22,945 nucleotides of DNA from a virus. Positions 1-19,922 of this stretch are shown in pieces. The stretch spans positions 1 through 22,945 of the IMG/VR virus record IMGVR_UViG_3300034407_000244; one strand, 5' to 3'. A program made the translations under genes and the position numbers. The notes under the pieces were generated by a model. That model saw only the letters and a list, made by a program, of their open reading frames with translations, was not told the origin of the DNA and ran no database searches. Position 1 is the stretch's first letter, and each line of letters starts with the position of its first letter.

Positions 1-215
1 TGAAGACGAACAATTGTGAGTATACAGCCTGCAGCAGGAGGCTGGAGCCCGATCCGATCCCGATACCAGGAGCTTACCTACACCTGAAAGCGAACAATTC
101 TACGCATTGGCAGCGTAAAACAGCCCGATCCAGCCCTCCGATCCCGATGCTACTGGAAATTGTTCGGTAACTCCGTCAGGCGACACGCCATGTGCAGAGC
201 CCGATTATCCCACTC
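1..215. other. Structured non-coding region downstream of terS
   Basis: No open reading frame of useful length is visible on either strand, although a gene beginning to the left of the window cannot be excluded. The stretch is visibly richer in G and C than most of the window. It carries three exact copies of CGAACAATT (7-15, 91-99, and inverted at 158-166). It also carries a duplicated block: AGCCCGATCC at 46-55 and 122-131, a third partial copy at 198-206, and CCGATCCCGAT at 54-64 and 138-148. A short hairpin pairs CAGCCT (25-30) with AGGCTG (39-44) around the palindrome CTGCAG. It lies directly after the small terminase gene, so a packaging (pac/cos) site or replication origin is a reasonable inference, but nothing in the sequence proves either. 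Confidence 0.55.
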
Positions 216-728
216 TTAACTATTTTTGCCTATCTTTTTTGGGTGTATATGGGTGACGTTAGCTTTTTTCATTCTATCCTGTGCTTTTCGTTGCAGATTC
301 TCCAGTTCAGCAAGAATATCCTCCTTCGTCATGCTATCTACTTTCTCATGTAGTACATGAGCCTTGTTTACAAGCAGTCCAGAAGCCTTTAAGCGTAATT
401 CTTCAGCCCGAATAGCTTCGCTATACCTTTCACGCTCCAGAGCCTCGTTACGGATCTTTAAAAGATCCCGAAGCGACTTATCAAGCGTTACACCAAACCT
501 TGACCTGTTCTCTTCCTGCATTTCTTGCCATCGCTCCTGCACCACAGGATTTCTGAGCAACCTCACTGCATCAACACTTGGATTACTATATCCAGCTTGT
601 CTGGCTGCATTTGTCTGCGTCATATCCTTATGGATAAAATTATCGAGAAAATCCTGTTGGCGTTGCGTTAACCTTTTCAGTCCTTTGTCTCTTTGTTCCT
701 TTGGTAAATTTTCGCCTACTTTTGGCAT
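216..728 (-). CDS. terS: Terminase small subunit
   Basis: 170 aa. The protein recognises the packaging site on concatemeric phage DNA and loads the large terminase onto it. The N-terminal part (about residues 20-75) matches the Terminase_2 pattern: LTQRQQDFLDNFI, then TQTNAARQAGYS, then RLLRNPVVQERW, which is the helix-turn-helix DNA-binding region of this family. The C-terminal half is charged and helical, as expected for oligomerisation and contact with the large subunit, and ends in a basic tail. The ATG at 728 follows AAGGAG by 9 nt. The large subunit would be expected next (to the left) but is not in the window. The two non-coding stretches on either side of this gene are the repeat-rich ones. 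The family assignment is strong; the site it recognises is unknown. Confidence 0.88.
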   Translation of the reverse strand: MPKVGENLPKEQRDKGLKRLTQRQQDFLDNFIHKDMTQTNAARQAGYSNPSVDAVRLLRNPVVQERWQEMQEENRSRFGVTLDKSLRDLLKIRNEALERERYSEAIRAEELRLKASGLLVNKAHVLHEKVDSMTKEDILAELENLQRKAQDRMKKANVTHIHPKKIGKNS

Positions 729-825: not shown

Positions 826-986
826 TGGTAAGTAGCAATAAAATCAATGACTTACAAGCTAAAATCAACTTACCATGATAAACGGGAAGTTCCGTAAGTA
901 AATCGAATTTATTCAATAATATCAACAACTTCCGACTTCCCGTCAAATTTACTTCCCGTGGAAGTTGGTAAGTTGGTAAGTAAATC
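811..986. repeat. Cluster of GGAAGTT/GGTAAGT direct and inverted repeats
   Basis: GGAAGTTC followed by GGTAAGTTGGTAAGTA begins at 811. A copy lacking only one C begins at 960. A shorter relative, GGGAAGTTCCGTAAGTA, spans 884-900. Inverted copies are AACTTACC at 867-874 and AACTTCC near 927. The cluster runs from the non-coding gap upstream of terS into the last codons of the zinc-finger gene (909-1271), so it constrains both. Repeated short units of this kind are typical of binding arrays such as iterons or packaging sites; the function here is inferred. Confidence 0.6.
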
Positions 987-1271
987 ATCATAAATCCGAA
1001 CAATTTTCGAGTTTGAGGTGCACCTGTACCAGTTACCTGTTTGAGTCTGTTTATAGTCCATTTTACCCAGTGCTTTGGTAAACGCAAATTCACATTCAAA
1101 GCAATATTTTTCCGAACAATTCATGTAATGCTCAATGTCCAGATCCAAGTTCTGGGCTAATCCAAATTTAACAAAGCAACCCATACACAGGCTTTTGTCC
1201 ATTAATGGAAACGCCATACCCCGAACAATTCTCTCGTTACAGTTGCAGCATCTTTTACTTTTAGCTTTCAT
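909..1271 (-). CDS. Small cysteine-rich zinc-finger-like protein
   Basis: 120 aa, function not recognised. Cysteines come in metal-binding spacing: C8/C9 with C11, C29-x2-C32, then C52-x4-C57-x2-C60. One or two zinc ribbons in the first half are therefore likely, suggesting DNA, RNA or protein binding in the cytoplasm. The second half has no motif I can name. The ATG at 1271 is preceded by GGAGG with a 6-nt spacer. The start overlaps the end of the 79-aa gene by 11 nt, so the two are translationally coupled in one leftward operon. Three exact copies of CGAACAATT lie inside this gene (997, 1113, 1222), the densest coding cluster in the window. The last codons lie in the GGAAGTT/GGTAAGT repeat cluster, so the C-terminus may be shaped by DNA-level selection. 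Confidence 0.7.
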   Translation of the reverse strand: MKAKSKRCCNCNERIVRGMAFPLMDKSLCMGCFVKFGLAQNLDLDIEHYMNCSEKYCFECEFAFTKALGKMDYKQTQTGNWYRCTSNSKIVRIYDDLLTNLPTSTGSKFDGKSEVVDIIE

Positions 1272-3822: not shown

Positions 3823-3896
3823 TGGAGAGGTAGAGGGGAATCGAACCCCTGTAAATGGTTTTGCAGACCATCTCCTAACCACTCGGACACTACCTC
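3823..3896 (-). tRNA. tRNA-Cys (GCA)
   Basis: A complete 74-nt cloverleaf. Acceptor GAGGTAG pairs with CTACCTC. D arm TCC/GGA encloses a 9-nt loop. The anticodon stem ATGGT/ACCAT encloses CTGCAAA, giving anticodon GCA. The variable loop is 4 nt and the T arm AGGGG/CCCCT encloses TTCGATT. The discriminator is T (U73, the cysteine identity base) and CCA is encoded. All stems are intact, so it should be functional. Its first base coincides with the last base of the stop codon of the 61-aa gene, so it must be cut from a polycistronic transcript. Confidence 0.95.
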
Positions 3897-4699: not shown

Positions 4700-4912
4700 T
4701 TAAATATCACTTAATGTACTTTTGGAAAAAACATGAGTCGGCTTTCTTCTGACTCGACCATATTCTTTTTCCTTCGCTGCCCTGGGATCGTCCTCGAATA
4801 ATTGTTCGGACTCATCTAGCTGGTTGGATTTTTCGTTGATTAATTTTTTTGTAAACGCAATCAGTTCGTTGTATTTTTTACTGTTCTTACTGTATTTGCC
4901 CTTCTTAGACAT
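4700..4912 (-). CDS. Small charged hypothetical protein closing the replication operon
   Basis: 70 aa from the ATG at 4912; a GTG at 4945 would give 81 aa. I prefer the ATG because it overlaps the primase-helicase stop by only 8 nt, although neither start has a good ribosome-binding site. The N-terminus is lysine-rich (MSKKGKYSKNSKKYNEL), the middle is acidic (LDESEQLFEDDP) and the C-terminus is basic again (YGRVRRKPTHVF). No family is recognised. It could be an accessory DNA-binding subunit of the preceding primase-helicase, by position only. The acidic part is encoded across one CGAACAATT site at 4800-4808. The strong terminator begins 3 nt after its stop. Confidence 0.6.
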   Translation of the reverse strand: MSKKGKYSKNSKKYNELIAFTKKLINEKSNQLDESEQLFEDDPRAAKEKEYGRVRRKPTHVFSKSTLSDI

Positions 4913-7073
4913 TATCCGTTGCTGTGGTTGCCTCGTATTCTCCACGAGACATCACGCCATCTGTTGTGCCAAGCCATTTACGACCACCCGATGCTGAGAA
5001 TGAATATTTCCCGATTCGTGATTCCTGGATAAGTTCACGAACAATTCCGTCAATGCTTCTTTGTGTAAGATTATTTAATACTCTTGGTGCATCAGCATCT
5101 GAAGCCATACGTTGTTGTATTGCATCTGCTCCCGATTGTTGTGTCAAGGCTCTTCCCTCCCTCTCACAGGTTGCTATCCAAGAGAACAAGGCATCTTTTT
5201 TAATCTCTCTATTTGTACCAGAGTGCAGTCTTTTAATCTCTTCAGTCTTGTCCTCTAATAATCCAGAGTAACTATTTCTGACGAAATGTCTAATATTTCT
5301 GTTAGCTGGTCCATTAGATTTTACAACTGCACCATCAAAACACCTGTTACGCTCATACTCCGTTCCGATGTCCATGCAACGTCTACGACCAGTAGCTTCA
5401 TCCACTTGCCATAATGCAAACGCACAACGCACACCATCTACTAACGCTGACGTACCTCTTATAAGTAACCTTGCTTGCTCTGGAGTATTGACCACTGTAT
5501 CATCTTTGATCTTTGTCATATGATGACACATCACGACTGACGCACCAGTTTCTGTTCCGATCTGTGCCAGTAAACCAGTTAAAGCAGCTCCTGCTGCTGG
5601 ATCAGCGTTGACATCAGCATGAACAAATGAAGCCAGAGGATCAAAAATAATGAGCTTCAAGTTATTCATTTGCAGTAATTGTTCGTAAAGTTTATCAAAT
5701 TCTTCACTGGTGCTGTAGCCATCTCTGGTATCCTGAAGTATTGGGAACACACCACCTACGTTAGGAAGTGACACGACTCGTAGCTCATGCTGGTACGAAA
5801 ATCTCAAATTGTTCGGATCCAAACGCTCAATCCTCCTGTGCATTTCTGCCTCGTCATCTTCTGCCGTGAAGATTACCACGTTGCCAAACTCCCCGATGGA
5901 GCTACCAAAACTCTCGGCTAATGGCTGACCTGAAGCTACTTTCATAGCTAAGTCCAGTGTCATCATTCCTTTACCAGCATCTCCTGCTGCAGAGAATATT
6001 ATTGGCACGCCCAGAGGAAATGTGCCATCGACCAGAAACTTTTGTTCGGGTGCATTACCTTCAAAACGGCTGACCAGTAAACTATCGTCCAGTAAATTTA
6101 TGTTACGTCTGGTATGCTTGACTGTTGTGTTTAAAAAATGTTGGACATCAAAGCTTTCCGATATGGCATCAACGGCATCCCAACCCTCTGGTTTACCTCT
6201 TGGTGGCGTTAATGTGGTTACCGATCTTGCACCAGCATTCAATGCCAGTTCCTGAACCAGTTCAGCTACCTTACGCCCAGCATTGTCATTGTCACCCCAT
6301 ATAATAAGTTCTTTGTCCTGTAATGGTGAGAAGTCAAACCTACTGGCTGACTTACGAGAAAGCATACCAGCTCCTCCCATTGTGCAAGTTGCAGTGTACC
6401 CGATCTCATTAAGTGCATCAGCACACTTTTCGCCCTCAACCCATATGACCTTTTCTGACGCAACAACATTCGGTAGGTTATATAAAGGTCTTACATCAGG
6501 TATCTTTGGATAAGAAGCATCTGTAAACTGCCTAAACTCTTTTTTAGGTTTGCCATGACTATCCATGACTGGATTGCCATTCTCGTCTTTAATGTTGTAT
6601 CTACGAACACGACATAAGAGTTCGCCATCAACTGACAGATATAAGTGCTCATGATCAAATGGCGTGTTTATGTCATATGTTTTTTTAAATGTTACGCTTA
6701 ATTCTTTTGGAATATCTGGCTCCGAAGGTGATGATTCGTCCAGATAGTTTCCGAACAATTCTTTGATTTCAGGCAATCTCATGTTCCTTCCCTCCATCAA
6801 AATCTTTACAATGCCACCTACACCTTCGGCTCCGTTGAAGTCCGATCCCTTCATAAAATAAGGTGATCTTGGATTAATATCTATCTTTAAAGATTTGCCA
6901 GGTTCACCATGTAGTGACCCGATGGTAAACACATCTCCTCTGATTTCTCCTTGTGGATAAGTATCCCGAAGAGCGTTAATTTGTACGCTGGCTGGGACTT
7001 TCTGACTAATCAAATCGACTAATTCATTGGCTGACATATCCCTATTCTTATTGCCAAATTTTATAATGTTCAT
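4905..7073 (-). CDS. TOPRIM primase / RepA-like hexameric helicase fusion
   Basis: 722 aa. The likely role is priming and unwinding at the phage replication fork. Domains in order: an N-terminal part (about 40-115) shaped like the primase zinc-binding region but lacking its cysteines; a TOPRIM domain with WVEGEKCADAL (catalytic E213), then IIWGDNDNAGR (D261 and D263); and a RecA-like AAA domain of the RepA/AAA_25 type with Walker A GDAGKGM (364-370) and Walker B LIIFDP (D478). MCHHMTKI and IRGTSALVDGVRCAFAL follow, as in RepA-type helicases. The C-terminus may be a winged-helix region. ATG at 7073 after GAGG with an 8-nt spacer, behind two abutting hairpins. Base composition is more GC-rich than in the virion genes, and it holds three CGAACAATT sites (5038, 5677, 5807) plus one at 6752, suggesting separate ancestry. 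Confidence 0.87.
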   Translation of the reverse strand: MNIIKFGNKNRDMSANELVDLISQKVPASVQINALRDTYPQGEIRGDVFTIGSLHGEPGKSLKIDINPRSPYFMKGSDFNGAEGVGGIVKILMEGRNMRLPEIKELFGNYLDESSPSEPDIPKELSVTFKKTYDINTPFDHEHLYLSVDGELLCRVRRYNIKDENGNPVMDSHGKPKKEFRQFTDASYPKIPDVRPLYNLPNVVASEKVIWVEGEKCADALNEIGYTATCTMGGAGMLSRKSASRFDFSPLQDKELIIWGDNDNAGRKVAELVQELALNAGARSVTTLTPPRGKPEGWDAVDAISESFDVQHFLNTTVKHTRRNINLLDDSLLVSRFEGNAPEQKFLVDGTFPLGVPIIFSAAGDAGKGMMTLDLAMKVASGQPLAESFGSSIGEFGNVVIFTAEDDEAEMHRRIERLDPNNLRFSYQHELRVVSLPNVGGVFPILQDTRDGYSTSEEFDKLYEQLLQMNNLKLIIFDPLASFVHADVNADPAAGAALTGLLAQIGTETGASVVMCHHMTKIKDDTVVNTPEQARLLIRGTSALVDGVRCAFALWQVDEATGRRRCMDIGTEYERNRCFDGAVVKSNGPANRNIRHFVRNSYSGLLEDKTEEIKRLHSGTNREIKKDALFSWIATCEREGRALTQQSGADAIQQRMASDADAPRVLNNLTQRSIDGIVRELIQESRIGKYSFSASGGRKWLGTTDGVMSRGEYEATTATDNV

Positions 7074-7134: not shown

Positions 7135-7896
7135 TTAATTACTCCAGCAAGTGTCTTGAAACTCACAATATTTGCAAGCGAAGTAGTCACGAGACTGTGC
7201 TATTCGTGGTAATACCTCATTTGCTTTTGTAGCTTCAAGTATTGATACTGCTTTGTCACTGATCTCTTGTGCTAAAGCTTTGTTAAAATTTACAAACTCA
7301 TAATAGATCTCACTTGTATTCTTATTCAATACAGTAAATAGACATGGATTATCTGTTAGCTCCATGTAAGCTTGATACAATGCAACTTGTGCTGCATACA
7401 CAGGATTTGCCAGTGCAACACCTTTTGACTGGAACTCTTTAAACTTCTTATCATTAGCTGACTTACATTCCCACAACATAGGATATTTAGCATTCAAAGG
7501 TCCTCCACAAATAACACCATCGATATGACCTTTGACCTCACCTTCAGCTATACTAAATCCAAATTGTTCGCCATTCTTATCCTGAACTCGCAAATCAAAT
7601 CCAGCTTGTCTAAGCCAACCAGCTACACTTAATTCTATTTCATGACCAAACTGGAATATTCGCAGTGTCCTTGCATCAAAATCCCGTTCATCATCGATGG
7701 GCTTTCCCATATATCGATATTGTATTTTCCTGGAACAGGAATCTCCTAAACTAGAAGCACCAAGATAGGTTCTTTGCTTAACTTCTTTGTTCTTTTTGAC
7801 GATAGCTTCGTCAATAATATTTGATATTTCTTGATCTAACATATTAGAACTCATTGCCTGATAAGGCTGACTTTGAATTAGAGTTGAAAATGCCAT
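7135..7896 (-). CDS. Cas4/RecB-like PD-(D/E)XK exonuclease with Fe-S cysteines
   Basis: 253 aa from the ATG at 7896, which has GGGGA 8 nt upstream; a TTG at 7929 would add 11 residues, and an ATG at 7854 is also possible. The nuclease core shows GHIDG (D126), then WECKSA (E143, K145), the PD-(D/E)XK active site. Later QVALYQAYM is the RecB-family Q-x-x-x-Y motif. One cysteine at 54 plus C241-x2-C244-x5-C250 reproduces the Cas4/AddB arrangement for a 4Fe-4S cluster. Expected activity is DNA end resection in phage recombination, together with the Sak4-like ATPase and SSB-like protein encoded upstream. There is no Cas1/Cas2 or CRISPR array, so a CRISPR role is not supported. One CGAACAATT (inverted) lies at 7562-7570. 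Confidence 0.82.
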   Translation of the reverse strand: MAFSTLIQSQPYQAMSSNMLDQEISNIIDEAIVKKNKEVKQRTYLGASSLGDSCSRKIQYRYMGKPIDDERDFDARTLRIFQFGHEIELSVAGWLRQAGFDLRVQDKNGEQFGFSIAEGEVKGHIDGVICGGPLNAKYPMLWECKSANDKKFKEFQSKGVALANPVYAAQVALYQAYMELTDNPCLFTVLNKNTSEIYYEFVNFNKALAQEISDKAVSILEATKANEVLPRIAQSRDYFACKYCEFQDTCWSN

Positions 7897-8256: not shown

Positions 8257-8542
8257 CTTTAGCCTCTATCGCAAGTGCAGCATATCCAATAATATCTATC
8301 ATATTGTCATCTACCTTTGGATTTTGACGATTTCTAATTTGTTTTATTCCGATCATAGCCCTGTATACGTCATGCACATCTAATGGCTCTTTTAATTTGT
8401 TTTTGAGTAAAAGGCTCCACAACTGGGCTATGTCTGTATGTGTTTCAAAAGCATTGCCATGTGACTTTGCTCTTGCTCCATTAATTAGTAAATCTACCTT
8501 TTGTAAAGCTTCACTAGCTTTCTGATTAGGTTTATGCTGCAT
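8243..8542 (-). CDS. DUF6378-like small phage protein
   Basis: 99 aa. The pattern KVDLLINGARAKSHGNAFETHTDIAQLWSLLL, then VYRAMIGIKQIRN, then DDNMIDIIGYAALAIE matches a phage family I know as DUF6378: a helical domain with a G-R-x-K-x-Y/H-G start, a central metal-contact-like stretch and the D-I-x-GYAALA signature. Its molecular function is not established; the helical, all-alpha NTP-pyrophosphohydrolase-like look is suggestive only. ATG at 8542 after GGAG with 6-nt spacing, overlapping the helicase end by 11 nt and the next gene by 14 nt. Confidence 0.7.
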   Translation of the reverse strand: MQHKPNQKASEALQKVDLLINGARAKSHGNAFETHTDIAQLWSLLLKNKLKEPLDVHDVYRAMIGIKQIRNRQNPKVDDNMIDIIGYAALAIEAKDGKN

Positions 8543-10214
8543 TATTATCTCCTTCGTAATAATCTAAAACTTTGCCATCTATCTCTCGTTTATTCCACAA
8601 ATAATTTAACCAACAGGCAGCTTTATATTTACTGAAGCTTAAATCTAATGGACTAACAATTTTATTTTCTCTTGCTAAAGCTTCTCTTTGTCTTTCTGTC
8701 ATAGCTTGATTCAACCATCTTTTACCTTTCTTAGCTCCGTCACTATCTTCTATTTGCCTTAAAAAATCGTCAGCAGAGGCTAAAGCTTGTTCTTTAGTAC
8801 CTACACCTACAATTCTAATTTTGCCCTTTGTACGCTTAACTAAAGCTACAGAAACATCATCTAAATGTGCAACCAAACCAAATCCATTAAAGCCACTTGC
8901 TGACATACATTTGCCATTATTGAACAAGTCAATCCATCTAAATGGAGATCTATCGATAAGATCAATCTCTGTCATGTTAAATGTTTCAAGCAACTCTTTT
9001 GCCTGCATTTCGATTTCATGCCCACACATAGGACAGACACGAACACTCAATGGTATAAGGCATTTACAATTTGGACACACTTTCTCTGGTCCAGTTCCTG
9101 ATTGTGATTTATCTTTACCATCAAGATCAACGCCCTCATCAAGTGATCCATGTGTTAACACACTTGTGCCAAAGTCTAACACAATACAATCTTTTTTAAT
9201 TATTCCAGGATGTTCCTCTGGATCTATTGTTCGTAGTCCACGACCAATCATCTGCACCATTGTTGATTTGTATGAACATGGTCTTGTAAGCACAATACAA
9301 CTGACAGGTGGTGCATCAAAACCTTCTGTCAAAACTGCAACATTAACAACCACCTGGACATCTCCATGTTCTAAATCATGAAGTATTTGTTTTCTTTGTT
9401 CCGATGGCGTTTCACCTGTTACAATCTCTGCTCTAACTTGTGATCTTCTAAACTCATCACATAAATCTTGTGCATGAACGACTGTGCTACAAAATATTAC
9501 AGTCTTCCTATCTCCAGCTTTGTCTTGCCATTCCTCTACAATCTTTTCATTGATGGCACGTTTGTTCATGATCTGCTCGACTTCACTCATGTCGAAGTCT
9601 GAAACTGTTTTACGAACATTTTGTAAATCTTGTTGCACACCCACATCAACAACAAATGTTTTTGGTGGAACAAGAAAACCCTCTCGTATTAAGTTGCCTA
9701 TCTCAATCTGATGTGAGCAGTTATTGAATACACCTTTTAAACCTTTTCTGTCACCACGATTAGGCGTAGCCGTAAAGCCAACAATCTCTACAGACTCGTT
9801 AGCTTCTTTAACTCTTTTAATAATTCTCATGTATGTATCAGCTATGGCATGATGACTTTCATCTATGACCATCATGTCTACTTTCGACATATTATCTAAA
9901 TTGTTCGGTCTGGATAAGGTCTGCACCATGCTAAATACTGCACTACCATCCCAATTCTTTTGTGAAGCATCAACTACACTTGTTGATATTTTTGGATTAA
10001 CACGACTAAACTTACTTGCATTCTGTCCTACAAGTTCATCTCTGTGTTGTAATACTAAAACTTTTTTACCTTTGGAATATCGTTTGCCAATCAATGCCGA
10101 TAACATAATAGTTTTACCAGCACCAGTTGGTGCAACAACAATAGTATTTTTATGCTTATCTAAAGCATCTGAAGCATCTTGTACTGCTATCTCTTGATAT
10201 GGTCTTAAAATCAT
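8532..10214 (-). CDS. SF2 DEAD/DEAH-type helicase with C-terminal zinc ribbon
   Basis: 560 aa. An ATP-dependent DNA or RNA/DNA-hybrid helicase of the type phages use for replication restart and recombination-dependent replication (UvsW/RadD-like). Motifs in order: Q-type LRPYQ at the N-terminus, Walker A APTGAGKT (28-35), DESHH (118-122), TAT (148-150), motif V-like NVAVLTEGFDAP (291-302), and motif VI QMIGRGLRT (321-329). A zinc ribbon, C380-x2-C383 with C394-x2-C397, follows and is typical of RadD-like helicases. The last 150 residues are an uncharacterised domain. ATG at 10214 with GAGG 5 nt upstream. The leader upstream has mutually exclusive hairpins. One CGAACAATT (inverted) lies at 9899-9907. 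Confidence 0.9.
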   Translation of the reverse strand: MILRPYQEIAVQDASDALDKHKNTIVVAPTGAGKTIMLSALIGKRYSKGKKVLVLQHRDELVGQNASKFSRVNPKISTSVVDASQKNWDGSAVFSMVQTLSRPNNLDNMSKVDMMVIDESHHAIADTYMRIIKRVKEANESVEIVGFTATPNRGDRKGLKGVFNNCSHQIEIGNLIREGFLVPPKTFVVDVGVQQDLQNVRKTVSDFDMSEVEQIMNKRAINEKIVEEWQDKAGDRKTVIFCSTVVHAQDLCDEFRRSQVRAEIVTGETPSEQRKQILHDLEHGDVQVVVNVAVLTEGFDAPPVSCIVLTRPCSYKSTMVQMIGRGLRTIDPEEHPGIIKKDCIVLDFGTSVLTHGSLDEGVDLDGKDKSQSGTGPEKVCPNCKCLIPLSVRVCPMCGHEIEMQAKELLETFNMTEIDLIDRSPFRWIDLFNNGKCMSASGFNGFGLVAHLDDVSVALVKRTKGKIRIVGVGTKEQALASADDFLRQIEDSDGAKKGKRWLNQAMTERQREALARENKIVSPLDLSFSKYKAACWLNYLWNKREIDGKVLDYYEGDNNAA

Positions 10215-10235
10215 ATATTCCTCACTGGCTTAATG

Positions 10236-10273
10236 TTGGGTAGTTTTAGGGCACTCGTACTACCCAAACGAGT
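10236..10273. promoter_or_regulatory. Mutually exclusive hairpins in the helicase leader
   Basis: TTGGGTAGT (10236-10244) is exactly complementary to ACTACCCAA (10259-10267). ACTCGT (10253-10258), lying in the loop of that hairpin, is exactly complementary to ACGAGT (10268-10273). Because there is no linker to span a stem, the two cannot form a pseudoknot together and should be alternative folds. The element ends about 14 nt upstream of the helicase ribosome-binding site, in a gene-free stretch of 104 nt. Translational or attenuation control is inferred. Confidence 0.5.
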
Positions 10274-10318
10274 TGCAAGTAGACTAAGGTCAGTTAGCCC
10301 TTGCTATGCCTATCATCA

Positions 10319-10921
10319 CTACTTTGCCCAATTAGGTACAGTACCACCTGATGGTGGGGTCTGTGGTTGTGATGACGTATTCGTTGCTGGTGCAGAACCA
10401 TTAGGAATATATCCATCCATGCCTTGTGTCATAATAACTTTGACCTTATTTTTATCAGCATACATAGGATCATTAGACTTCTCAATGCCGATTTTAACAC
10501 ATACACTCATGCCATTAATTGAAGCTACACCACCTTGGGAAGCATCTAACTGCCTTACGGCTTGTGCCTCTGGTGAAGCATCATTGGCAGATATATTTTT
10601 ATGACTCTCCAACACTGCTTTTAACCATTGCAATCCAATCTTTTTCGACTTGGATACACCATTATCATCTCTAGCATCGCCATCAAAGAAATGATTATGC
10701 CAAAACCTACGTTTATCAAATTGACCACCAATGATGGTATATTCGACTTCAAGCCACTTAGCTGACGTGCTTTGTGAAGCTCTGAACAATGGTGCATTAC
10801 TCAACTCTGGTATTGTAACTGCATTAGGTTTAATTGTAATTATTGCTCTTGCAATAGTTCCATCTGGGATTAACTCAAAATCACTTGGTGACATATCCCC
10901 TACATTATTTAAATCAATCAC
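10319..10921 (-). CDS. Single-stranded DNA-binding-like protein (DUF669-type)
   Basis: 200 aa. The layout fits a phage ssDNA-binding protein of the DUF669 type: a short N-terminal segment ending in FELIPDGTIARAIITI, an OB-like beta region with AKWLEVEYTIIGGQFDKRRFWHNHFF, a second beta region (MSVCVKIGIEK), and a flexible Ser/Pro/Gln/Thr-rich tail ending in VPNWAK. Expected role: coat single strands made by the exonuclease and helicase and hand them to the recombination ATPase. The start is GTG at 10921 with AAGGAG 7 nt upstream. It overlaps the ATPase gene by 4 nt (GTGA), the mark of translational coupling. I see no acidic tail of the host SSB type. The family call is moderate. Confidence 0.65.
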   Translation of the reverse strand: MIDLNNVGDMSPSDFELIPDGTIARAIITIKPNAVTIPELSNAPLFRASQSTSAKWLEVEYTIIGGQFDKRRFWHNHFFDGDARDDNGVSKSKKIGLQWLKAVLESHKNISANDASPEAQAVRQLDASQGGVASINGMSVCVKIGIEKSNDPMYADKNKVKVIMTQGMDGYIPNGSAPATNTSSQPQTPPSGGTVPNWAK

Positions 10922-12673: not shown

Positions 12674-12886
12674 ATGACAGACACAACAAAATTCAAGTCA
12701 GTTGGTTTAGATTTAAAAAGCTATGAAAAGCTAAACAAAATATGTGAACATCAGAGAAGAAACATCAGACAACAGTTAGGTCTAATGATCGATAAAGAAT
12801 TTGAAAAAGAAGAGTATAACGATTACAGAGCTAAAGTTACAAGCCTAGGACTAGGTGCTATCAACAGACTTCATCCTAGAGATTAA
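12674..12886 (+). CDS. Ribbon-helix-helix (Arc/CopG-type) regulator
   Basis: 70 aa, the only plus-strand gene I accept. The RHH fold is visible: strand KSVGLDL (about 8-14), helix SYEKLNKICEHQ, a turn, then helix NIRQQLGLMIDKEFEKE. Such proteins bind the major groove as dimers and act as repressors. The ATG at 12674 has GGAGG with a 7-nt spacer, one of the better sites in the window. The gene faces the DUF1064 gene divergently (12 nt between starts) and runs convergently into the lysozyme gene, overlapping its last 36 nt, so late leftward transcription would make RNA antisense to it. It sits at the switch point between virion and replication modules and is the best candidate for an operator-binding regulator. 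Confidence 0.75.
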   Translation: MTDTTKFKSVGLDLKSYEKLNKICEHQRRNIRQQLGLMIDKEFEKEEYNDYRAKVTSLGLGAINRLHPRD

Positions 12887-13300
12887 ACGATTAGCACGAT
12901 TGGTTACCTGTCTGTGCCAACGGCTGTCCTCCATCTGGACAGCACATTCTTGCCAGTTTCTCTCAGCTACAGCTTTGCATAGCTTTCTAAATTTGGAGAG
13001 ACGAGGTCGACCAAGATTAAACATCATATTTGCCAAGATTTTTTGTACTTCTTCAGGTAAATCGTTAAAGTTTTCGTATAATTGTTCGCACTCAGACAGC
13101 GTAACTTTGATGTCCTGGTCGAATAATTCGTTAACTCTTTCGTCATCAACCACTGTTCCTACTGGCAATCCATGTTCTGGATCTGACTCTTTTATAAGAT
13201 GTCCTATGCCTACAGTGGGTAGGTTTAAATGATCTAAATATACGGAGTTGACCCGTCCCTCGTCATTCTGAATCTCTTGTCTGAGCTCATCTATGTTCAT
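12851..13300 (-). CDS. Endolysin, T4-type lysozyme (GH24)
   Basis: 149 aa, close to T4 lysozyme in length. Hydrolyses the MurNAc-GlcNAc bond of peptidoglycan at the end of infection. The T4 catalytic triad is present with exact spacing: E14 in NDEG, D23 in YLDH and T29 in LPTVGIGHLI (T4 E11, D20, T26). The C-terminal helical lobe follows, including ILANMMFNLGRPRLSKF and WHRQVTNRANRLI. No signal peptide or N-terminal anchor is seen, so a holin is needed to reach the wall; none is obvious nearby. ATG at 13300 overlaps the stop of the 1045-aa gene by 4 nt. The 3' end overlaps the RHH gene on the other strand by 36 nt. One CGAACAATT (inverted) lies at 13080-13088. Confidence 0.92.
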   Translation of the reverse strand: MNIDELRQEIQNDEGRVNSVYLDHLNLPTVGIGHLIKESDPEHGLPVGTVVDDERVNELFDQDIKVTLSECEQLYENFNDLPEEVQKILANMMFNLGRPRLSKFRKLCKAVAERNWQECAVQMEDSRWHRQVTNRANRLISRMKSVDST

Positions 13301-16300
13301 GCTGTGCCTCTTGTTCTCTGTGCTATAGCTATGTCAGATGGATTTAATCCTAATGAAAAAGCATTAGCTGGATTGGTTATATCTACACCAGCAATTTGAG
13401 TTCCTGCTGCTGGTGGATTTATAGTTGGTGCAGAAGCTACGTTTCTAACTTCATTAACACTTGTTCTAGCTTGATTAATAGCTGGTTGTATTTGTTGTGT
13501 AACATTTCTTATTTGATCTTTAACACCTGAACTTTCAAGAACTGCATCTACTTGATCTTCAACTTCGTTAACAGTGTTATCAATAGTCTGTCCAAGTGAT
13601 TGACTTAATAATTTACCCATCTTAGAGCCAAAATCTTTAGCTCTTTCTGCTGGGCTTCTGTATTGTTTTAAAGTTATGTTTCTATATTGAGCTATAATGT
13701 CATCATAATAGCTTTGAGATAATAATCTGTTACCTAAAACTGTAAATTTAGCAAGCTTACCTAAATTTTGAAATGGAGAAGCTGCTATGTTAGCTGCGAC
13801 AAGATCTCCACCTTCTGCTGCTCTTGCATTAAACTTTAATATTTTAGCAAAATCCTCCATACTTTTACCCATCGTGTCACCAAAAATTGTTCGTAGTTTA
13901 CCATCGGCTGAAGCATCTAACATTCTATCTGCAAAAGCATTTAAGGATTTACCATCTGTCATAAGTGACTCACCAAAATCATCTATCATACTATTCATAT
14001 AATAAGATCTAATTTTTTGTATCGCAGCATCGTCTCTATTCTTAAAGAAGTAATTCATTATAGGTCTGATTTCAGAGTTTTTAGTTTGTTTTTGTACTAA
14101 AAATCTTGAAGCCTCTAACGGATCTAAATCTAAAGTTTCATCTTGTAATTTTTTTATAATTCTATTCTTTTGTTCTCTTGCCAATATTTTTTGTGTATTT
14201 GACAAACCTCTTAATTTTCGCAATAGTCCTGGTATTGATTCTGTGTCACCAGCAGCATTGATGTATTGATTTAAAACTCTTTGTGATTCTAGCCCTGTTA
14301 TTTTAACTGAGCCTATTTCATCAGCGAGTTTTAATACCTCATCTGTTTTATCTCCGAACAATTCTTTAGCAGTTGTACCAAGTCCTTTAATAGATTTAGC
14401 AAACTGTGTTCCATTAAAATCTTTTACATTTTTAAAATTAAGTATGCCTGATCTTTCAATGGCATCTTCTAAAAATTGATTTGCAGCTCTAGCAACAAAT
14501 TCATCTGCAATTTGATCTCCAGTTCTGCCACCTTGTTTAGTGCCATATTGTCTTATAAACTCGTTAGCTCTTTGTAAAAACTCCTCATTATTAGGTTTTA
14601 CAACTTGTCGATATATATCTATGTTTGCTGGTATTCTATCTACTTCACCTGGAACTGGCTTATATAAGTCTAAATTTTTTATTGCAGTAGATGTATATAA
14701 ATCTTCTAAAAGTCTTTTACCTTCAAAAAATTCTGTTTGTGCATCTTTAAGTGTTTTACCAGCATTTTCAAATTTACGCATTGTTGCTGTATCATTTACT
14801 CTAGCTGTTAGATTTCTAAAAAGATTACTCTCTCTATCACCCATATCTTTAAATATTTTATCAATTTGATCTAATATTCCAGGTGATCCTTCAGGTCCAA
14901 CTAATTCTTTTTTAACAGTTTGACTAGATGTTAATCTTAAATCACTTATTGTTTTTCTTAAATTATAAAGTTGATTAAAGGACACTTTTTCTGTTAAACC
15001 TTCGTCTAATTTTCCAGCTATACTTTCAAATGCACCTATTATTTCTCGATAAGCTTGACCATCAGCATTTTTTGGACTTGCGATTTGTGGTGCAAAATCC
15101 TTTTTTATTCTTTGTAGTTGACTTGCAAAATCATTTAAAAATAGAAATCCTTGACGACCAGCACCATCAAGAGCAGGATCTCTTAATATATCATCAACTG
15201 CACTAAACTTCCCTGTAATAAATTCATCAAAATTATCTGTTGCTTCCTTAAATAACTTAAACAAATCACCATCAACAGAACCATTGACTTTTGCTGCTTG
15301 TTTAAATGAACCCACAGCACCTTCCATTTGCTTAATAATTTCTTTTATGGCTTTTGCCTCATCATCCATAAGTTTTTGATTATTATCTACCATGCCACGT
15401 TTTAAAATATCTCCAACGTCTATTGCATCTCCACCACCTAAGTCAAATTTTTCTTTGTAAGTATCAATCATGGTTTTAATTTTATCGTTGTTATTTTTTA
15501 ACCTGTCTGATGTTTTAAATATTTTTTCACCAATGGCTTGTACTCTTGCTACGATAGATGGTGCTCTTATAGCAGATAAGGTCGGCTTAATACCAAAGCC
15601 ACCTCTTTCTATTGCAGCGAGTTTTTCATCTGCTGACAATCTTTTAAAATCTTCAGGCTTAATAACATTACCAGCTTCATCAAGAGGATCAGATATGGAT
15701 TTACCAGCAATATCCATTTCTGCTTTTGTTAAATCTTTACCAGGAGTTACACCTCTTCTTACAGCTCTGAATGCTCCAGCAGCTAAACCAAAGGTTAAAT
15801 CACTGAAAAAACCTATTCCAGCTTCTTTGAGAACATCCATACCAACTTCGCCAATGTCTTGTTTTTGCACACCAGTAACAGCCTCGCCAATTTCTTCTAC
15901 AGCTTGACCTCCACCAGCTCCTAAACCAGCTCCAAGAGCAGCACCAAAAATGGGGATTGGAATAGCTATTTGACCAGCTATGGCTCCACCTATACCAGCT
16001 ACTAATTCTGGTGCTACACCTGCGAGATCTGAAAAGTCATAACGACTAAATCCTTCTTCATCTATAAGTATATTCTTATCTGTTTCTTGACCAAATTTAG
16101 CTGCACCAGAGGGTGTAAGAGCTAATCTTCCTCTGTTATCTCTAAGGTAATCATCATCAGTCAAATCAAATTTATTAAGAATTGCTTCTTCTTCATCATT
16201 AGTTTCAGCAAAACTTAATGCAGAACGAAGTGCGTTGCTTTTTATTCCTGTATTTTTATCGAACAATTGTTCGAGCTTATCACCAGTTGTGGGTTCATCT

Positions 16301-19107: not shown

Positions 19108-19922
19108 TACGCCCTCGCCTCTAATTCTTCCATCATATTATAAGCTCTTTGTATGCCTTTTCTTGAGTTGCCATCGCCTAACCCTTTTACAGCATCTTTT
19201 GTCAAAACAAACTCACCAGCCATAAGCATAGCTGGAACATCATCTTTTGTACCAGAACCTTCAGATGGATCTATACCACCTGTACGTCTTGGAAATCCCA
19301 TTTCTCCACCTTCTCTAGCAAAAGTAATTCCACCTAATTGACCACCAGGTCCCCCAAAACCAAAAGGTCTTTGTTCAAATTCTTTTTTCTGTTCTTCGTC
19401 ATCATCTCCAGCAACAAGTTGTGCTATTAATCCAGCAGTTAAACCCTCACCTAAAGGTGTGTTTAATAATCTTGTAAGTAAATTGTTTCCACTTAACCCA
19501 GCAGAACTTAGTAATTCTGCACTAAATGTTTTTGGCTTAAAAGTTTCTGCAATGCCTTTTGTCGCAGCTTCTGTAGGAACTTTTGATGAGCCTCCTCCAA
19601 CATCCATGCCACCACTGCCTGCTTTAGGATCACCACCTCCAGATCCAGATCCACGAACAATTGTTCCGTCTGCACCTTTTGTTACAGTTTGATCTGCTCC
19701 ACTAAATTTATCAAAAGCAGCACCACCAACTCCTGCAATTAAAGCATTTCTAAGTGCATCTTTTGTTTTGCCACCTAATAATTTAGATGTTAAGCCTCCT
19801 GTAATTGCTCTACTTATAAATGGACTTACTCCAGTTCCAGCTACAGCAGACCCAATGCCAGGTCCTAAAAAGCTACCAACTAGCACAGGTGCTATATCTT
19901 TTAATAATTTACCTAGGCTCAT
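19107..19922 (-). CDS. Structural / ejection-associated protein with glycine-rich membrane-active segment
   Basis: 271 aa. The N-terminus is hydrophobic and glycine-rich (LVGSFLGPGIGSAVAGTGVS, then GGLTSKLLGG), a small membrane-active candidate. The middle is a Gly/Ser/Asp linker. The C-terminal 70 residues have the pattern GGIDPSEGSGTKDDVPAML, MAGEFVLTKDAVKGLGDG and RGIQRAYNMM, a tail I recognise in marine-phage virion proteins of unknown exact role. ATG at 19922; the ribosome-binding site is weak, with AAGG 12 nt upstream. It shares a TAATG junction with the next gene. The imperfect palindrome at 19654-19667 lies in the linker. Confidence 0.62.
   Translation of the reverse strand: MSLGKLLKDIAPVLVGSFLGPGIGSAVAGTGVSPFISRAITGGLTSKLLGGKTKDALRNALIAGVGGAAFDKFSGADQTVTKGADGTIVRGSGSGGGDPKAGSGGMDVGGGSSKVPTEAATKGIAETFKPKTFSAELLSSAGLSGNNLLTRLLNTPLGEGLTAGLIAQLVAGDDDEEQKKEFEQRPFGFGGPGGQLGGITFAREGGEMGFPRRTGGIDPSEGSGTKDDVPAMLMAGEFVLTKDAVKGLGDGNSRKGIQRAYNMMEELEARA

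Follow-up and report, generated by a model that had tools for sequence, protein, structure and literature searches.

A palindromic word forms an array 3' of terS and recurs across the genomes of a marine phage group

What is the repeat-rich DNA at the edge of this viral contig, and which protein would read it? The window, by which we mean the whole 22,945-bp linear viral fragment that was analysed, opens with repeats beside terS, the gene for the terminase small subunit (Terminase_2; 216–728, minus strand), and an earlier note had taken positions 1–206 for a candidate packaging site or origin. Consistent with its description, we found duplicated blocks in this stretch (AGCCCGATCC at 46 and 122, CCGATCCCGAT at 54 and 138), and the repeat counts of 1–206 were matched by none of 5,000 dinucleotide-preserving shuffles. 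The composition differs as described, with a GC content of 0.544 compared with 0.372 for the window (rank 21 among 22,739 windows of equal size), and the stretch is indeed gene-free: its sole frame is an open-ended one of 55 amino acids, and a search for a gene crossing it found none. A coding role was rejected, as there is no frame and the indels in relatives, which include insertions of 10, 13 and 96 bp, are mostly not multiples of three.

The coordinates 1 and 206 themselves reflect the contig edge and not a natural boundary, and positions 1–206 are only the first 200 bp or so of an array of 450–600 bp, the remainder of which is cut off by the contig end. The array extends from the terS stop in the 3' direction and so reads on the minus strand; its truncated start occupies positions 1–215. 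The 9-mer CGAACAATT occurs three times here, as the earlier note had counted, twice on the plus strand (7 and 91), but the third copy is inverted (minus strand, 158–166). Each copy is the core of a 14-base palindrome site, at 7–20 (minus strand, CGAACAATTGTGAG on plus; core 7–15), at 91–104 (minus strand, CGAACAATTCTACG on plus; core 91–99) and, in the inverted orientation that is conserved in relatives, at 153–166 (plus strand; core 158–166). Between them lie two clusters of TCGGG or ATCGGG words on the minus strand, at 46–64 (CCCGA at 48 and 59), which we read as degenerate half-sites, and at 122–148 (CCCGA at 124 and 143), and a further TCGGG word at 200–204 (minus strand) adjoins the terS stop. 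The CCCGAT blocks reported earlier are these TCGGG words of the array.

Searching with terS yielded 75 related viral contigs, and searching with the paired-site DNA pattern yielded at least 120 viral stretches but only 2 stretches in 257 Gb of prokaryote genomes. Those two (L212 and L213) lie in an Alphaproteobacteria MAG and a Mariniphaga MAG, and no proteins of the phage group were found in either; the host search likewise found no TerS relative in prokaryote genomes. A TerS relative was present in 219 of 245 loci, giving 99 distinct TerS sequences. When about 95 distinct relatives were aligned on the terS stop, the array lay directly 3' of terS, and all three tiers of relatives carried it, down to those with TerS 46–52% identical to that of the window. 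The first 500 bp after terS contain 8–11 motifs per kb at a GC content of 0.56–0.59; motif density then declines over 3–4 kb from the terS stop and is essentially zero beyond, with no motif inside the terS of relatives and none in the late genes past terL. TCGGG words are similarly enriched in the arrays of the 95 relatives (11.8 per 500 bp versus a background of 1.3) and lie almost entirely on one strand, 1,048 in the terS sense and 72 opposite, with spacing peaks at 6 and 11–12 bp; they may be weak half-sites that all point the same way. Intervals between sites cluster at 52, 62, 74, 84, 95, 106 and 116 bp, and helical phasing at 10.5 bp is suggestive only (R of 0.38 over all intervals; 0.21, p about 0.08, with one interval per sequence cluster).

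The motif is not a local repeat, as it had been presented, because 19 exact copies of CGAACAATT are spread over the window. This word is half of a palindrome, AAnnCGAACAATTGTTCGnnTT, and is the most over-represented 9-mer of the window, with 0.18 copies expected under a trinucleotide model; 10 copies are forward and 9 reverse, and the reversed word, used as a control, is absent from the window. Three relatives of 52.7–54.8 kb have 35, 45 and 39 copies, compared with about 0.4 expected. The 27 9-mers that differ from the motif by one step average about one copy each, which indicates that the motif is kept sharply and not as a cloud of near matches. In the site logo, which has the two-fold symmetry of AAnnCGAACAATTGTTCGnnTT, one half is usually the stronger, and many sites retain only one half and the central AATT. 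Of the 35 copies in the longest relative, whose terS is at 27.3 kb and terL at 34.9 kb, 31 fall within 8–31 kb.

Open reading frames of at least 100 amino acids hold 13 of the 19 window copies, and in-gene copies are found on both strands. A Cys-rich open reading frame of 120 amino acids (909–1271, minus strand), zinc-finger-like by eye and without a family match, has three copies (997, 1113 and 1222), the 109- and 116-bp spacing of which is conserved in relatives. Further minus-strand copies lie at the end of the primase-helicase region (4800–4808) and in the genes for a Cas4-like exonuclease (7562–7570), a helicase (9899–9907) and a lysozyme (13080–13088), and the primase-helicase gene itself (4905–7073, minus strand) contains four, at 5038, 5677, 5807 and 6752. 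A gene for a protein of 1,045 amino acids carries copies at 13885 and 14355 (13885–14363) and a perfect palindrome, CGAACAATTGTTCG, at 16260–16273; a near-perfect one, CGAACAATTGTTCC, lies within a gene at 19654–19667.

Sequence comparison indicates that these dispersed copies are under selection. When mapped by flanking DNA, 18 of the 19 window copies were identical in each of three relatives, whereas local DNA identities of 71–97% predict that only 7.5, 5.6 and 2.9 copies would be unchanged. In the primase-helicase gene, 8 of the 9 third codon positions within three clade-wide copies were invariant across ten sequences, compared with 26% of comparable third positions. Other clades have copies elsewhere in the same gene, which suggests that the word persists although individual sites come and go. 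Most likely, a phage protein involved in handling the viral DNA uses the copies as landing sites. We found no earlier description of this motif, or of similar dispersed motifs, in the literature available as open-licence full texts.

These results bear in two ways on the idea of a packaging site or origin. A conserved non-coding element fixed 3' of terS stands, and repeat-rich non-coding DNA that adjoins terS and is conserved in relatives is what a pac site would offer; but the dispersed copies within genes are not predicted by a plain pac, cos or origin, and the recognition sequence is not confined to a packaging locus, as it occurs in 35–45 copies genome-wide in the 54-kb relatives. The reading that we favour, at a probability of roughly 0.38, is that positions 1–206 belong to an array on which a nucleoprotein complex assembles to mark the phage genome for packaging, that they form its end nearest terS, and that TerS reads the array. 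It draws on the fixed place of the array at terS, from an invariant helix-turn-helix accompanied by an invariant motif and from same-direction half-sites that would suit a ring of helix-turn-helix domains. The strong units of the array would be palindromes of about 22 bp (AAnnCGAACAATTGTTCGnnTT), and the weak units same-direction TCGGG half-sites. Paired helix-turn-helix domains of TerS would take the palindromes, and successive domains of the TerS ring, all pointing alike along the wrapped DNA, would take the half-sites on the same strand. Once loaded, the ring would recruit the large terminase for cleavage, and packaging would start towards terL. The dispersed copies could serve as extra landing sites that help to load TerS and to tell phage from host DNA.

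The window's TerS, the candidate reader, matches its family clearly (PF03592, 45 bits against a cut-off of 26.1; phrog_51, 1e-16). Profile searches match its N-terminal helix-turn-helix to the SF6 G1P DNA-binding domain (4zc3, 3zqp and 2cmp; E about 1e-7), and Foldseek aligned TerS with 4zc3 at a TMt of 0.86, but with an E of 0.058. Like the motif, the helix-turn-helix is nearly invariant over the 99 distinct TerS sequences. For packaging, SF6 uses a pac region that contains direct repeats (PMC4737164), and the SF6-like DNA-binding domain, together with the repeats that follow terS in the more distant phage HTVC023P, counts in favour of the packaging reading. Several observations count against it. 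The SF6 domain bound pac DNA without sequence preference (PMC4737164), and in SPP1 pac overlaps the gene 1 promoter and the beginning of that gene instead of lying 3' of it (PMC6316719). Dozens of selected copies within genes are also more than a pac site requires.

A change of motif in a sister clade offers a natural comparison of possible readers. In this clade (L062–L064; full record G009; TerS 62% identical), whose loci also include L090 and L091 from the same record, AATTGATCG replaces AATTGTTCG throughout the genome, with 27 copies of AATTGATCG and only 5 of AATTGTTCG in 39.6 kb. At TerS residue 50, all AATTGTTCG phages have P or A, and E occurs in the AATTGATCG clade alone; this position opens the predicted recognition helix and is one of two clade-unique positions among 125. 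On this predicted structure, the change would fit TerS as the reader. The covariation is a single event, and a clade-unique position could fall there by chance. The AATTGATCG sites are 0.5–3 kb away from terS and occur upstream of the gene as well, which counts against a TerS reading.

The same switch brings in a rival reader, a ribbon-helix-helix protein of 70 amino acids that is core in the group (12674–12886, plus strand). The motif may be the operator of this protein, an Arc- or MatP-like dimer that would coat and fold the early part of the genome from the dense nucleation array on the terS side, organising or segregating DNA or controlling early promoters; we regard this as possible but tentative. 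Residue 7, predicted to face DNA, is V in the AATTGATCG clade alone and F or Y in phages with AATTGTTCG, and this one clade-unique change equals that of TerS; the homologues in phages without the motif, however, keep the strand residues Y/W7 and S9. The protein was found in 10 of 12 long relatives, and the two that lack it are fragments that are also without the neighbouring core genes. Dimers of the Arc/MatP type recognise two-fold palindromes, which in the case of MatP are dispersed, so that such a protein suits the two-fold palindrome at least as well as TerS does; the frequent location of intergenic copies between terminators and promoters would also suit an operator. That the same genome encodes a ribbon-helix-helix DNA-binding protein is as expected of a MatP/matS-like system. 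The best solved matches to its model are Arc, MatP, CopG and ParG, and matches to MatP are weak (Pfam E of 0.021, NCBIfam E of 0.017); family and fold matches are under formal cut-offs, the MatP family score being 15.2–15.6 bits against cut-offs of 24 and 165. In addition, the gene lies far from the array. A third candidate, the MqsA-like helix-turn-helix protein by terL, is disfavoured as a reader, as phages with one and the same motif differ freely in the recognition helix of this protein.

Repeats also lie 5' of terS. This iteron-like region (779–985) consists of GGTAAGT/ACTTACC and GGAAGT/ACTTCC repeats and contains a CCCCCCTATA/TATAGGGGGG hairpin. Each clade has its own iteron word directly 5' of terS, GGTAAGT in the window and TTAACGTAA, CTACAGT or others elsewhere, accompanied by a CCCCTATAGGGG-type hairpin. 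The 5' repeats vary by clade while the helix-turn-helix of TerS is invariant, and TerS is therefore unlikely to read them. The region is a candidate origin or terS operator. It is at least as good a candidate for an origin as the array, and it lies nearer the textbook position of pac. Among clade-1 contigs, 24 of 48 left ends fall between −500 and +280 bp of the terS start, a pile-up that may mark genome ends but that assembly breaks at repeats would explain equally well, and to which the iteron region is nearer than the array.

An origin at the array is correspondingly doubtful. On this account, a phage initiator would start replication at the array and the AT-rich tract after its last site, and we consider this unlikely. 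A poly-A or AT tract does follow the array in relatives, and SPP1 origins contain an AT-rich unwinding element as well as direct repeats (PMC6316719). A G-quadruplex pattern, which 47 of 95 arrays show on the G-rich sense strand and not on the other, would also be in keeping with an origin. Against these points, an AT tract precedes other promoters too, in the manner of an UP element, the iterons 5' of terS are a more usual form of origin than the array, no initiator gene was found, and an origin leaves the dispersed copies unexplained. The GC-skew check that had been proposed for an origin gave no turn at the array; within the window, itself a fragment, skew is negative from 1 to 12.5 kb.

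The strong strand bias of TCGGG, nearly limited to the sense strand, could alternatively mean that the array acts as RNA or as single-stranded structure, either a structured 3' transcript or G-quadruplexes in the terS mRNA. Folding of single sequences was slightly better than that of shuffles (z of −2.2), but the consensus fold was poor (−46.6 kcal/mol, with a covariation term of −2.05), the window stretch folded no better than shuffles (z of −0.3) and in-gene copies of the motif occur on both strands, making this reading very improbable. A search for an Rfam family covering the array found none. The G-quadruplex pattern of runs of at least three Gs occurs on the sense strand in 47 of the 95 arrays, on the other strand in 2 and in about 2 of the shuffles, and may be a by-product of the TCGGG words.

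We also considered regulators of the host. The matched text of a paper on Mycobacterium tuberculosis LexA contains the exact CGAACAATTGTTCG (PMC8607333), and the sites might on that ground be host SOS boxes of the LexA type or decoys for a host regulator. Prokaryote genomes, however, yielded only 2 stretches with paired sites in 257 Gb, sites that keep one half and the central AATT are unlike a LexA box, and a single host regulator is unlikely to serve phages of 32–52% GC, so that we give this explanation almost no weight. Two other systems with dispersed sites fit poorly. No ParB match (PF02195), the protein expected of a ParABS system, was found in 10 long records. Stoperators belong to temperate phages with a repressor and an integrase and are asymmetric sites in one orientation relative to transcription; here no tyrosine integrase was found in the 10 long relatives, and the sites are palindromic and take both orientations in the window (10 forward, 9 reverse). 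With neither a tyrosine integrase nor ParB in ten long relatives, the group is likely to be lytic.

The closest annotated relatives by TerL (55–60% identity) are the Pelagibacter phages HTVC023P and HTVC027P, phage 023Pt_psg01 and phage DSL-LC04; the first 2.4 kb of the window had no DNA match among annotated phages. These four share with the group a block of small genes between terS and terL, and they lack the AATTGTTCG motif. HTVC023P has three direct repeats of about 34 bp (AATCTTGAGAATACATACCGAAAATTTTT) directly 3' of terS (L087:12466–12570), unrelated to the motif, and the DNA after terS in DSL-LC04 shows no repeat array. Several features of the terS–terL block are recorded here in their own right. 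Genes for a gamma-glutamyl cyclotransferase and an amidoligase-like protein are core in it (L006:8553–9056 and 9354–10586). An 86-amino-acid protein and the MqsA/HTH-like protein form a toxin–antitoxin-like pair upstream of terL that is conserved across the group (L006:10850–11498), and a 694-amino-acid protein between this pair and terL has no family match. Promoters of the small-gene cassettes (TTGACA and TATAAT-like; L006:7050–7110, 7850–7895 and 8490–8530) overlap a repeated word such as GTAATCATTACTATA or GCAATGATTGCTATA, which is preceded by poly-A tracts and is likely to be a second operator common to the clades. The window also carries a tRNA gene on the minus strand (3826–3896; Rfam tRNA, 63 bits).

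How the terminases of pac phages tell phage from host DNA is poorly understood, and small terminases often look non-specific in vitro. In the phages described here, nature provides some 100 distinct TerS proteins, every one of them paired with a legible array, and among them a single switch of motif with a matching change of one residue; specific recognition thereby becomes directly testable. If the ribbon-helix-helix protein were the reader instead, the virus would be folding or marking its own genome through a dispersed sequence code. Whichever protein reads it, the motif is a strong metagenome marker for this marine phage group.

The motif can be set beside several known systems. The pac of phage P1, with its TGATCA/G hexanucleotide repeats, and the R sites of lambda cosB are short, oriented, terminase-binding repeats near the small-terminase gene, but they are few, confined to one locus and not known to have the selected, genome-spread copies seen here. 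SPP1 and SF6 G1P resemble the present system in Pfam family (Terminase_2), in having the closest solved DNA-binding domain (SF6 G1P) and in repeat-rich DNA by terS. They differ in that pac lies at the promoter and start of gene 1 (PMC6316719, PMC4737164) and the array here 3' of terS, and the box repeats of SPP1 are not known as genome-wide dispersed copies. Cluster A mycobacteriophage stoperators are likewise dozens of short, phage-specific sites spread over the genome (PMC9283540). They are, however, asymmetric repressor sites of temperate phages, whereas the sites here are palindromic, lie in genes and on both strands, and belong to phages in which a tyrosine integrase was not found. MatP/matS of Escherichia coli shares a ribbon-helix-helix protein and a dispersed palindrome of about 13–14 bp with regional distribution, but it is chromosomal, has sparse sites and no array, and the phage protein scores below the cut-off of the family. 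The DNA uptake sequences of Neisseria and the Pasteurellaceae have a similar density (about 0.8 per kb), a sharply kept short word in and between genes, and intergenic inverted pairs; unlike them, the motif here is found in phages, not in known host genomes, and has a dense array linked to terS. Tentatively, a large and apparently lytic marine phage group may enforce one palindrome at tens of places in each genome, within genes as well as between them, and a phage-encoded protein may spread from a nucleation array at terS to identify and organise phage DNA for packaging. Such a system, its specificity switched once together with its reader, would be a viral counterpart of matS, parS or an uptake sequence.
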